Part shown: positions 14,677 through 17,570 of the stretch, piece after piece
How positions within the stretch are numbered: position 1 is the first letter of the stretch
How the letters are laid out: the number at the start of each line of letters is the position of its first letter
Assembly: GCF_002019695.1 (NCBI RefSeq)
Contig: NZ_KV917376.1
Span: 4,040,974 to 4,104,973, forward strand
Origin: Evansella clarkii
Lineage (GTDB): Bacteria; Bacillota; Bacilli; Bacillales; Salisediminibacteriaceae
Direction: 5' to 3'
DNA: 64,000 nucleotides
The notes under the pieces: generated by a model
Databases searched by the model: none
The model's input: only the letters and a program-made list of their open reading frames with translations
What the model was told of the DNA's origin: nothing
Program-made: the position numbers and the translations under genes

Positions 14677-14907
14677 TTAAAGAGAATTAATATTTTCCGT
14701 CCCTAATATGAGTGGAAGTAAAGTTATGATAAGACCGATTATGAATAAGGCGACCCCGAATATTTTTGCCAGCAGTTCCTGGTGGTCTCCAAAAACTGTC
14801 CAGGAATTATAATTAACGAGAAAAAGTGCTTTCTTTTTAAAAACGAGAAATCCAATCAGCATGATAAATAATCCTATTAAAACAGTTAAAATCACTTCAA
14901 TTTGCAT
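14677..14907 (-). CDS. Small two-span membrane protein, unknown function
   Basis: The 76-residue product has an N-terminal span (residues 4-24) and a C-terminal span (about 48-68), joined by a short basic and aromatic loop. AAGGAGG precedes the ATG. It is the first gene of a two-gene unit and is divergent from the phosphatase gene with the in-frame TGA. Confidence 0.72.
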   Translation of the reverse strand: MQIEVILTVLIGLFIMLIGFLVFKKKALFLVNYNSWTVFGDHQELLAKIFGVALFIIGLIITLLPLILGTENINSL

Positions 14908-15063
14908 ATTTTCAGCTGCCTCCTTGTGTTTAAGTTTAATATGTAGCTGGAAACCTTATAAAAATATTAAGGTACCTACTGAACTTTACGAACGAGAGTT
15001 ACCAAAAGTTTCAATTTTTGCCAATCAATTAGAAGTACAGGCTATGATTTTTCGCAGCTAAAA

Positions 15064-15072
15064 ATGTATAAT
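15064..15072 (+). promoter_or_regulatory. Extended -10 promoter of the phosphatase gene
   Basis: ATGTATAAT contains TATAAT at 15067-15072 with TG directly before it. It lies 30 bases before the ATG at 15102 and would give a leader of about 20-25 bases. Confidence 0.5.
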
Positions 15073-15101
15073 GCAGATAGGAAGGAACATGAGGTGATAC
15101 A

Positions 15102-15530
15102 ATGTCCGACTATCAAAAGCTACTTAATGGAATTTTCATGTGCGGGGAAAAAGCCGTTCAAACAGCTGCAGAAACAGAAAAGGCTGATTATATTATTGAT
15201 CTCAGAGCGGAAACTGACGAACGGACTTTTCAGGATAAAAATACAGAATGGTTCCGTTTTCCGTTAGTTGATGGCCAGCCTGGTCAGAAGGAATCATTTA
15301 AAGAAGCTATCTTTTTTAGCGTTAATGCATACAAAGCAGGAAAAACTGCCATTCTTCACTGAAAAGGTGGGAAAAGCCGCACAGGTAGTGTGGCAATAGG
15401 AGTACTGCTCGAACTTGGATTCGCTGAAACTGTAACACAGGCTGAAGACATGGTGAAAGAGATCCGGCCGCAAATTACTATACATCCTGAATTTCGGAAG
15501 GAGCTTGAGAAGCTATACTCAGACCGGTGA
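15102..15530 (+). CDS. Dual-specificity/tyrosine phosphatase-like protein with TGA at the catalytic position (candidate selenoprotein)
   Basis: The frame has 142 codons if TGA at 15360-15362 (codon 87) is read through. The sequence is GKTAILH-TGA-KGGKSRTG, which is the HCX5R(T/S)G signature with the nucleophilic Cys replaced by the stop; Arg93 and the loop glycines are intact. Asp57 in FPLVDG fits the general acid of this fold. After the TGA, 55 codons continue as the expected C-terminal helices (VAIGVLLELGFAETVTQAEDMV) and end in a normal TGA followed by a terminator. GAGGTG precedes the ATG. A SECIS-like hairpin begins 13 bases after the TGA. Read as selenocysteine this is a complete enzyme; otherwise it is a nonsense mutant or a sequence error. 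The true substrate is unknown. Confidence 0.75.
15376..15394 (+). promoter_or_regulatory. SECIS-like hairpin downstream of in-frame TGA
   Basis: GCCGCAC and GTGTGGC form a 7-bp stem (one G-U pair) closed by loop AGGTA. Thirteen bases separate it from the TGA, and the loop G is about 22 bases downstream. Bacterial SECIS elements sit at this distance and carry a G in the first two loop positions; the E. coli fdhF loop is AGGUCU. The element lies inside codons for SRTGSVA, so sequence constraint from the protein also applies. Confidence 0.6.
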
Positions 15531-15541
15531 AGACGTAACAA

Positions 15542-15573
15542 AAAAGCATTGGGATTTTCCAATGCTTTTGTCT
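15542..15573 (+). terminator. Terminator of the phosphatase gene
   Basis: AAAAGCATTGG, a six-base loop and the perfect complement CCAATGCTTTT, then GTCTTTTCC. The stem is 11 bp and lies 12 bases after the stop codon. Confidence 0.88.
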
Positions 15574-15620
15574 TTTCCTGCTCCTGCTGTTAAGGCATCT
15601 AAATTCCAGCAGCCCTCAAA

Positions 15621-16361
15621 TCAGACGCCCCGCTTATTTCCCCATACTAAAGTGTGGAGCTGCGGCAGAACACGGACATCGTTCAATTCCGGCTCAGCAG
15701 CGACTTTATCGATCAGCGCTGCGTATTTTTCCAGGAGCACTGCAGCAAGGTCAGTTGTATCCTCACTGGCTGTATCGTCATTCCCTGTTTGGAGATACAG
15801 GGGCAACTCCGGATATTTTTCAGCTATATTTTTGGCATATGCTAAATCCCCATCATTAAAAATAACCACTTTCAGACTTGTATGGGGAAGCCGGCTGTTT
15901 TCATTTAACCGCTGAATAATTTCATCGAGCTTATTATAGTCTGTATTCATGCCAGAGCTAGGAGGCTTTGGAGAAATGGTCAGATCATCAATCTCCAGAA
16001 ACCAGTCCTGCCACCGGCTTCCCTGTGTTTCCAGTGCGACTTCAATATTATTCTTCTTTAATAATGCAATAACCCCAGCCAGGTTTTTCAGAAGTGCTGG
16101 ATTACCGCCTGAAACCGTAACATGAGAAAAACGGTTACCGCCAATCTCCTTAAGTTTTTCCCAAATTTCTTCCGGACTCATCTGTACAATGTCGTCCTTT
16201 GCGGAGCCGTCCCATGTAAAAGCGGAATCACACCAGGAACAGGAATAGTCACAGCCGGCAGTGCGGATGAACATCGTTTTTTTGCCGATGACCATTCCTT
16301 CCCCCTGAATGGTTGGACCAAAAATTTCTAAGACTGGTATTGTAGTCAAGCTTCCATCCAC
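15621..16361 (-). CDS. queE: 7-carboxy-7-deazaguanine synthase QueE
   Basis: This 246-residue radical-SAM enzyme converts 6-carboxy-tetrahydropterin to 7-carboxy-7-deazaguanine in queuosine biosynthesis. The iron-sulphur site CDYSCSWCDS (CxxxCxxC) is near residue 33, preceded by FGPTIQGEG, and VTVSGGNPAL follows as the SAM-binding GGE-like motif. The start overlaps the end of queD by 16 bases. It is the last gene of queC-queD-queE, controlled by the preQ1 riboswitch at 17.85 kb. Confidence 0.95.
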   Translation of the reverse strand: MDGSLTTIPVLEIFGPTIQGEGMVIGKKTMFIRTAGCDYSCSWCDSAFTWDGSAKDDIVQMSPEEIWEKLKEIGGNRFSHVTVSGGNPALLKNLAGVIALLKKNNIEVALETQGSRWQDWFLEIDDLTISPKPPSSGMNTDYNKLDEIIQRLNENSRLPHTSLKVVIFNDGDLAYAKNIAEKYPELPLYLQTGNDDTASEDTTDLAAVLLEKYAALIDKVAAEPELNDVRVLPQLHTLVWGNKRGV

Positions 16362-16825
16362 TCCCGTCTTGCTTCTGCATAGCTCGTCGGCGTTTCGTAC
16401 AGCCGGACAAACTCTACCCGTGCTCCTTGTTCCCTGCTGAGTGATTCTCTTTCGGCAACAGCCTCTGCCATTTTTTCAAAAATCCAGACTACCATATTCT
16501 CCGCGGTCGTATTCATCGGCGGCAATGTTTCGTTAAGATAACGATGATCGAGCTGGACCTCGATTTCCTTTTTCCAGATTTCTTTTATATCCCCGAAATC
16601 TATCATTAAGCCTGTTTCATCCACAAAACCGCTGATTCCAAAAATAACTTTATACGTATGGCCATGGAGGTTTTTACATTTACCTTCATAGCAATGAAGA
16701 TGGTGTGCTGCATCAAAAGTAAATTCCTTACTTACAAGCACCCGTTTCGAATGATATTTCAGCTGATCCCGCTGAATGTCTTCATCAATTTTTTCCAGTT
16801 TGTCGACAATTCGAAAGCCGTACAT
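16346..16825 (-). CDS. queD: 6-carboxy-tetrahydropterin synthase QueD
   Basis: The 159-residue enzyme belongs to the 6-pyruvoyl-tetrahydropterin synthase family and makes 6-carboxy-tetrahydropterin from dihydroneopterin triphosphate. Zinc-binding histidines are in FDAAHHLHCYEGKCKNLHGH, which also contains the catalytic Cys; MIDFGDIK and LDHRYLNE follow, then ETPTSYAE with the pterin-binding Glu. The N-terminal extension of about 28 residues before VSKEFTFDAAH is charged. It lies seven bases after queC and overlaps queE. Confidence 0.95.
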   Translation of the reverse strand: MYGFRIVDKLEKIDEDIQRDQLKYHSKRVLVSKEFTFDAAHHLHCYEGKCKNLHGHTYKVIFGISGFVDETGLMIDFGDIKEIWKKEIEVQLDHRYLNETLPPMNTTAENMVVWIFEKMAEAVAERESLSREQGARVEFVRLYETPTSYAEARREWMEA

Positions 16826-16832
16826 AAGAACT

Positions 16833-17504
16833 TCACCCTTTCTCTACTCGATCATTTTTCTCCTGCAAATAAGCGTCAAGCCCTCTTTTTCTTAAAACGC
16901 AGGCCGGGCATTCTCCGCATCCGTCGGCAATGATCCCGTTATAGCATGTAAGTGTCTTATTGCGGACAAAATCCAGCGCCCCAAGCTCATCGGCAAGTTT
17001 CCATGTGTCCGCTTTATCGAGCCACATGAGCGGTGTGTGTAAAACAAACTGGTGGTCCATCGATAAATTAAGCGTTACATTCAGTGATTTCACAAAAGCG
17101 TCTCGGCAGTCAGGGTACCCGCTGAAATCCGTCTCACAAACACCTGTGATAATATGACGGGCTCCCGCCAGTTTGCCGTAAATAGCGGCAAAGGATAAAA
17201 ACAGGAGATTTCTTCCTTCCACAAAAGTGGATGGCGGCTCCCCGTCCTTTTCTTCTATTTCTATATCGTCTCTTGTCAGCGCGCTCGGCGCGAGCTGGTT
17301 AAGGAGTGACATATCGAGAACGGTGTTTTTCACATTCAGCTCATCTGCAATTTTTTTTGCCACTTCTATCTCCAGACTGTGCCGCTGATTGTAGTTAAAA
17401 GTTACTGTCTCAACTTCTTTAAAGTTTTCAAGCGCCCAGAACAAGCATGTAGTACTGTCCTGGCCACCGCTGAAAACAACGATAGCTTTTTCATTCTTTA
17501 GCAT
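16833..17504 (-). CDS. queC: 7-cyano-7-deazaguanine synthase QueC
   Basis: The 223-residue enzyme makes preQ0 from 7-carboxy-7-deazaguanine, ATP and ammonia. It has the PP-loop [11 protein letters not shown] near the start and a zinc site at the end ([16 protein letters not shown]). ATG 17504 is chosen since AGGTGGG lies just upstream; an in-frame GTG at 17516 falls in that site. queC is the first gene of the operon, with a leader of about 330 bases holding a preQ1 riboswitch and repeat array C. Confidence 0.95.
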
Positions 17505-17570
17505 TCTATATCCCACCTGTTTATATATTTTTCACATGGCTTAACCAGCAGATTTTCTGATCTATTCACT

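Follow-up and report, generated by a model that had tools for sequence, protein, structure and literature searches.

A probable new selenoprotein family of Bacilli, with selenocysteine predicted in place of the catalytic cysteine of a dual-specificity phosphatase

The gene considered here lies in a 64,000-nucleotide stretch of the Evansella clarkii genome (contig NZ_KV917376.1, positions 4,040,974 to 4,104,973 of the forward strand; hereafter the window), and its features are collected in Table 1. It is read as one frame of 142 residues, in which the sole in-frame stop is a TGA at codon 87. This codon sits in the context GKTAILH-TGA-KGGKSRTG, exactly on the nucleophile of an HCX5R motif, and 55 codons follow it before the terminal stop. 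An earlier note on this DNA had described the frame in these terms, with Asp57 and Arg93 intact and a good ribosome binding site ahead of it, and a direct reading of the window confirmed each of these points. The terminator that was also named fared less well: a hairpin is present downstream of the gene, but the scan found 1 such hairpin where 0.8 are expected in shuffled sequences, and by itself it proves little. The neighbours of the gene in the window are an ornithine-cyclodeaminase-like gene, two small open reading frames without a Pfam match, and queE, queD and queC, none of which gives a functional hint. The last three (a queE-like radical SAM gene, a queD-like gene of the PTPS type and queC; 15621-17516, minus strand) adjoin the gene, and we see no link between them and the finding.

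Table 1. Features of the gene and its immediate flanks, in window coordinates
Feature	Position	Strand	Remark
Ribosome binding site AGGTGA	15092..15097	+	read from the sequence
Gene for the DSP-like protein, 142 aa with predicted Sec87	15102..15530	+	ATG start at 15102, TGA stop at 15528-15530
Cys14, possible resolving Cys	15141..15143	+	residue comparison, Sec vs Cys forms
Asp57, general-acid position	15270..15272	+	alignment to DSPs
In-frame TGA, codon 87, catalytic nucleophile position of HCX5R	15360..15362	+	same codon in 26 genomes
SECIS-like hairpin	15376..15394	+	stem 15376-15382 / 15388-15394 (7 bp), loop AGGTA 15383-15387
Arg93 of the HCX5R loop	15378..15380	+	invariant across 24 Sec and 43 Cys rows
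Terminator-like hairpin 3' of the gene	15542..15569	+	hairpin scan

When the TGA is read through, with U entered as C, the protein matches the Pfam DSPc profile with an E value of 5.3e-10 (39.7 bits, cut-off 33.5). The 86-residue piece upstream of the TGA has no Pfam match at E up to 1, and the piece downstream has a weak DSPc match (E 0.019). A profile of 13 homologues compared with solved structures led to dual-specificity phosphatases (DSPs) and other PTPs, the best match being DUSP10 (E 1.5e-9). Codon 87 aligns with the Cys of the DUSP10 HC motif, and Asp57 aligns with an Asp of DUSP10 that we take to be its general acid. Two marks of DSP membership are found in the read-through protein, namely the DSPc profile above its cut-off and an HCX5R loop whose Arg93 is invariant across the 24 Sec and 43 Cys rows aligned. 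The likeness in sequence to the known DSPs (PF00782; DUSP10, PTPMT1 and viral DSPs) covers the profile, the HCX5R loop, the position of the general acid and Arg93; the difference is that the known enzymes use a Cys nucleophile where Sec is predicted here, and that the general-acid Asp57, although retained in the window's protein, is missing from 8 of 24 Sec forms.

Decoding of an in-frame UGA as Sec calls for dedicated machinery, which the earlier note had proposed to look for and which the E. clarkii genome (5.48 Mb, 7 contigs) proved to hold in full. A single tRNA-Sec was found at 62.2 bits against the Rfam cut-off of 47, a cut-off that matters here, since every one of the 14 control genomes has matches below it and 5 controls pass it; ARAGORN also calls this tRNA-Sec, with the anticodon TCA. 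Its partners all exceed their NCBIfam cut-offs: SelB (635 aa; 364 bits, cut-off 242), SelA (477 aa; 544 bits, cut-off 268) and SelD (419 bits, cut-off 125). The genes for selA, selB, selD and the tRNA-Sec cluster within about 6 kb. SelD of this genome itself needs one in-frame TGA to be read through, and the Sec type of SelD is a listed selenoprotein in PMC13188914. The results for tRNA-Sec, SelB and SelD pertain to E. clarkii, and the other TGA-form genomes found by protein search were judged by SelA. SelA is present in 28 of the 35 genomes of the family sample, including all 10 TGA carriers, and in 48 of 80 genomes with a homologue in the order and class (80 of the 112 such genomes were covered), including all 11 carriers. 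Taken together, 21 of 21 carriers found by protein search have SelA, compared with 39 of 72 genomes with a stop-free homologue, codon 87 having been read as Cys for part of these 72. The Fisher p of 4e-5 for this contrast ignores kinship and is too good, the Sec forms being one subfamily.

The TGA itself is conserved well beyond E. clarkii. It falls at exactly codon 87 in 27 genes of 26 genomes (21 genomes came from protein search and 5 solely from the DNA pattern), with identities to the window's protein as low as 33-35%. Within the family sample, 13 of the 35 genomes have a homologue, at 14 places; 10 of these contain one TGA and 4 contain none, and all 10 TGAs lie at the Cys codon of HCX5R, where the other 4 places have TGT or TGC. 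The order sample (homologue in 76 of 397 genomes) added 6 further TGA genomes and the class sample (51 of 398) a further 5, and in all 12 stretches read from these 11 genomes the TGA lies within H-U-x-G-G. Among 398 genomes of the phylum sample, 5 match and only E. clarkii itself has the TGA form; that search used the Sec-only alignment A4 with E up to 1e-10 and may miss distant Cys forms. A DNA pattern run over the genome contig collection gave 15 stretches, which come down to 5 added named genomes once one chance match, one duplicate and eight cases already counted are set aside, these eight being L070 (the same broken copy as L089) and seven genomes known from the protein search. In the chance match, L072 from a Porticoccaceae MAG, the TGA is flanked by just 18 and 12 open codons, and the duplicate, L064, is L067 again, met at the end of a contig. 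A peptide-pattern scan of the same collection found no relative. The carriers include Salipaludibacillus keqinensis, Salipaludibacillus daqingensis, Sinobaca qinghaiensis, Evansella halocellulosilytica, Alkalicoccus saliphilus, Alkalicoccus chagannorensis, Litchfieldia alkalitelluris, Bacillus sp. MRMR6, Halalkalibacterium ligniniphilum, Halalkalibacter wakoensis, Halalkalibacter akibai and Mesobacillus campisalis, as well as Alkalihalobacillus bogoriensis with a broken copy.

This pattern bears on whether the TGA is a nonsense mutation that ends the protein at 86 residues and leaves a pseudogene behind. TGA is a stop by default, and 3 of the 27 TGA genes do look broken: that of G004 (L027) after the TGA, that of G039 (L089), which has a TAA after the TGA, and the second copy of G465 (L087), which is split over two frames. 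A pseudogene is nevertheless extremely improbable given a TGA at the same codon in 26 genomes, and TAA or TAG at codon 87 is absent from all homologues in the match tables of family, order and class, where the TAA of G039 is the sole in-frame stop other than TGA. Moreover, when the 50 codons after the TGA are compared between the window and seven relatives, pN comes to 0.11-0.24 and pS to 0.56-0.78, and a gene ending at the TGA would not look like this; by this measure, the codons downstream are under purifying selection. The comparison of homologues at codon 87 that the earlier note had suggested thus came out in its favour, with TGA kept in related species and TGT or TGC in the others. Random stops and frameshifts in closely related strains, which it had named as evidence against a selenoprotein, were looked for in related species; there the TGA is kept and selection is purifying, though the three broken copies stand. 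Those copies in G004, G039 and G465 suggest gene loss in places, or else draft errors; L069, in addition, has no start codon at the usual place. A sequencing error for TGC or TGT, although a single base separates TGA from a Cys codon, has a probability close to nil when separate genome records share both the TGA and matching hairpins.

The hairpin in question, a feature additional to those named in the earlier note, has the form GCCGCAC-AGGTA-GTGTGGC, with a spacing of 20 nt from the TGA to the loop, and folds with -12.2 kcal/mol. According to the bacterial SECIS model in section 5 of PMC13188914, the loop has 3-9 nt, the stem 4-16 bp and the spacing 16-37 nt, with a G in the first two loop positions and an MFE of at most -7.5. 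The window hairpin fits all of these rules, with the G as its second loop nucleotide, but does not show the commoner loop pattern of that source, in which N1 and N2 close as a pair (here A and A). A 40-nt stretch folds better than all 200 of its shuffles (z -4.55), and longer stretches do so less strikingly (z -2.70, -1.48 and -1.70). A search of window positions 14900-15700 against Rfam gave matches at chance level only and no SECIS.

Across 25 TGA genes the stem is paired in 98.9% of cells, and 6-7 of the 7 stem pairs can form in all 25 TGA forms compared with 2-5 of 7 in all 43 Cys forms, although five of the 25 (L065, L067, L069, L071 and L073) were found by a pattern that contains part of the hairpin and lend it no independent support; the other 20 came from the earlier note or the protein search. 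One of the seven pairs covaries (A-U in 17, G-C in 7 and G-U in 1, with both sides changed in 7 sequences). Its partners are the opening base of codon 94 (Thr ACN or Ala GCN) and the closing base of codon 96 (Ser AGT or AGC): a change from Thr to Ala at the former is accompanied by a synonymous change from AGT to AGC at the latter. All 25 TGA forms use CGC for codon 93, compared with 8 of 43 Cys forms. A looser test, which asks for a stem of 5 or more at any place within the range together with the G rule, is passed by 25/25 and 9/43, respectively. The energy rule does not discriminate, being satisfied at -7.5 or below by all 25 TGA stretches and by 25 of the 43 Cys stretches. For these and the following counts, L027 (G004) was left outside alignment A1 and everything later, L087 outside the residue, SECIS and tree counts, and L089 was kept for SECIS and left out of residue counts and trees.

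The hairpin also weighs on the possibility that a suppressor tRNA inserts Trp, Cys or some other residue at the UGA, or that plain read-through occurs. Either is very improbable, given that conservation of the SECIS-like hairpin is confined to the TGA forms and that every one of the 21 carriers tested has SelA; moreover, each of the 43 other forms read has Cys as the residue aligned to codon 87. With the Sec machinery, the TGA kept in 26 genomes and the SECIS-like hairpin all in its support, the candidate selenoprotein of the earlier note holds up: the gene very probably encodes a single-domain protein of the DSP family, 142 residues long, in which Sec replaces the catalytic Cys. The tRNA-Sec, carried by SelB, would decode UGA87 as selenocysteine, and the cue would be the SECIS hairpin that the ribosome meets with its loop 20 nt beyond the UGA.

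Sec and Cys forms separate in phylogenetic trees. With 24 Sec and 57 Cys rows, one branch (support 98/94) has 56 Cys rows on one side and the 24 Sec rows plus a single Cys row, L025, on the other; the bootstrap of this tree has not settled and, being unrooted, it gives no direction from Cys to Sec or the reverse. A smaller tree (24 Sec and 43 Cys rows) agrees, with support 100/99. The branch that places L025 (G001:C4:167370-167753) with the Sec forms is 2.8 changes per column long, and the placement is unsure; L025 is a fast-evolved Cys homologue, and its genome, G001, also has a Sec form. The Cys homologues of Bacilli (L021-L023, L025 and L095-L134) resemble the Sec protein in length and motif positions, at 35-42% identity to the window's protein in the four compared, but differ in having TGT or TGC at codon 87, no conserved SECIS stem and no Cys14, with Asp57 in 43/43. 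Both forms occur together in the genomes G001 and G163. The separation in the trees and this co-occurrence indicate a subfamily in its own right and no scatter of nonsense mutations, and we conclude from the alignments and trees that the TGA forms are a Sec-only subfamily of Bacilli, apart from the Cys subfamily.

The two subfamilies also differ in two residues and in their gene neighbourhoods, contrasts that amount to few evolutionary events, since the Sec forms are one subfamily; Fisher values for these contrasts therefore exaggerate their weight. Asp57 is found in 16 of 24 Sec forms (replaced by N in 5, S in 2 and A in 1) and in all 43 Cys forms, and Cys14 in 19 of 24 Sec forms and none of the 43 Cys forms. 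Five Sec forms are without Cys14, and three of these five, L066, L088 and L094, have no other Cys at all, so a relay through Cys14 cannot be general. In the stretches read, a chrA-like gene accompanies at least 11 of 26 Sec genes and 2 of 40 Cys genes, the 40 being a subset of the Cys loci found; the Sec figure is a minimum because stretch length varies and some stretches stop close to the gene. Within 500 bp or less the figures are 9 and 0. At six Sec loci (L060, L063, L089, L090, L093 and L094), chrA is on the same strand at 330 bp or less. For 6 of the 11, Pfam confirms a chromate transporter (PF02417, with E no higher than 6.1e-74), and the other 5 were called by BLAST similarity to these six, the copy at L069 being damaged or partial. 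No chrA occurs within the 8.6 kb read around the window gene, and the two chrA genes of its genome (C1:0.499 Mb and C1:5.139 Mb) are about 1 Mb or more away.

Other observations on these neighbourhoods may be recorded. One Sec clade (L060, L066, L093 and L094) has Asn at the general-acid position, and chrA lies on the same strand within 100 bp in L060, L093 and L094. A PadR-like gene stands beside chrA at three Sec loci (L067:2254-2559, L069:6979-7359 and L091:7427-7732; PF03551 confirmed for L067). Nothing else shared by Sec loci is commoner: the remaining shared neighbours are four gene groups found at 2 loci each. At L066:7724-8000 (Alkalicoccus chagannorensis), an open frame that looks ferritin-like by eye begins 19 bp 3' of the Sec gene.

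What the protein does can be approached from its HUX5R loop, which should bind a tetrahedral oxyanion. Two further inferences of the earlier note, a protein that still acts as a phosphatase and a Sec that provides nucleophilicity, are less secure than the selenoprotein itself, given the general acid missing from part of the Sec subfamily and the chromate transporter that recurs beside it. One possibility, to which we give about a one-in-three standing, is that the selenoprotein is still a true phosphatase: Sec87 would attack phosphate, the seleno-phosphate would be hydrolysed with Asp57 as the general acid, and Sec would add speed or reversible redox control. The DSPc match, the HUX5R motif with its invariant R93, the D57 that the window's protein shares with other Sec forms (16 of 24 have it), and the identity of the solved relatives by sequence (DSPs and other PTPs) all favour hydrolysis. 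The loss of the general acid from 8 of 24 Sec forms, when all 43 Cys forms keep it, counts against it, as does the recurrence of a chromate transporter as neighbour. Alternatively, the protein may have a redox role on oxyanions or oxidants, as a reductase or sensor, which we tentatively predict at a little short of even confidence. We consider such a role somewhat likelier than plain phosphate hydrolysis because the general acid is often lost, Cys14 is mostly present and chrA recurs as a neighbour, even though the window's protein keeps Asp57 and may be an ordinary phosphatase, five Sec forms are without Cys14 and many Sec loci are without chrA. The redox intermediate would be a selenenyl-sulfide between Sec87 and either Cys14 or an outside thiol. 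A narrower version of the redox role, a selenium-dependent oxyanion reductase or sensor on the DSP fold, is more speculative and in itself rather unlikely. Here Sec87, in the anion-binding loop, would attack chromate or another phosphate-like oxyanion at its metal or metalloid centre, after which Cys14 or an outside thiol would resolve the Sec87 adduct and, in part of the genomes, a ChrA pump encoded next door would export the oxyanion. A phosphatase fold would thereby have been turned to redox chemistry, with Sec taken up for Cys and the general acid let go.

Several known systems invite comparison. UshA is a metal-dependent 5'-nucleotidase, and the selenoprotein families named after it presumably belong to another superfamily than the window's protein. 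The rhodanese fold is related to Cdc25 phosphatases. Reduction by way of a PTP-like anion loop has a precedent in the arsenate reductases that share the PTP fold and belong to the low-molecular-weight PTP type, which are Cys-based with relay Cys residues of their own; any likeness of the Sec forms to PTP-fold oxyanion reductases would be indirect, through the Cys14 of 19/24 forms and the nearby chrA of 11/26 loci.

For described selenoproteins, the fullest list found is Table 1 of PMC13188914, with 119 families. None of them is a DSP or PTP family, and nowhere does the paper use the word "phosphatase". The two UshA-like families of the table (NF041198 and NF049981) are likewise Sec families named after a phosphoesterase, but their motifs are CxU and CxxU where the present protein has HUX5R, and no NCBIfam match links them to it. 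The rhodanese-like selenoproteins (PF00581) of the same table are known Sec families but of another Pfam family, to which the window's protein has no match at E up to 1. Also listed there are the Sec arsenate reductase and arsenate reductase-like families (TIGR00014 and NF041106), which offer the parallel of a Sec protein handling an oxyanion but are other families, and neither matches at E up to 1. The nine families of PMC12013277 likewise include no DSP or PTP selenoprotein. No selenoprotein model of NCBIfam release 20.0 matches the window's protein at E up to 1, and its only match in that release is the distant PRK12361 (27.6 bits, cut-off 505). By title and abstract, the open-licence literature yielded no fit for a Sec-containing phosphatase, nor for a phosphatase or selenoprotein together with chrA. 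The earlier note knew of no described Sec-containing tyrosine or dual-specificity phosphatase, and these searches agree with it. Bacterial Sec decoding is known; the protein family and the site of the Sec are new within the literature and databases searched, and we regard this as a probable new selenoprotein family.

According to section 7 of PMC13188914, the prokaryotic selenoproteins described so far are mostly regarded as redox proteins, and the majority of those characterised have a thioredoxin-like fold. Sec at the nucleophile of a phosphatase family, kept across many species, would mean either a natural seleno-phosphatase, for which we found no precedent, or a phosphatase family recruited to redox or oxyanion chemistry. 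The natural pair of Sec and Cys subfamilies in Bacilli makes the role of selenium in a phosphate-binding active site testable.
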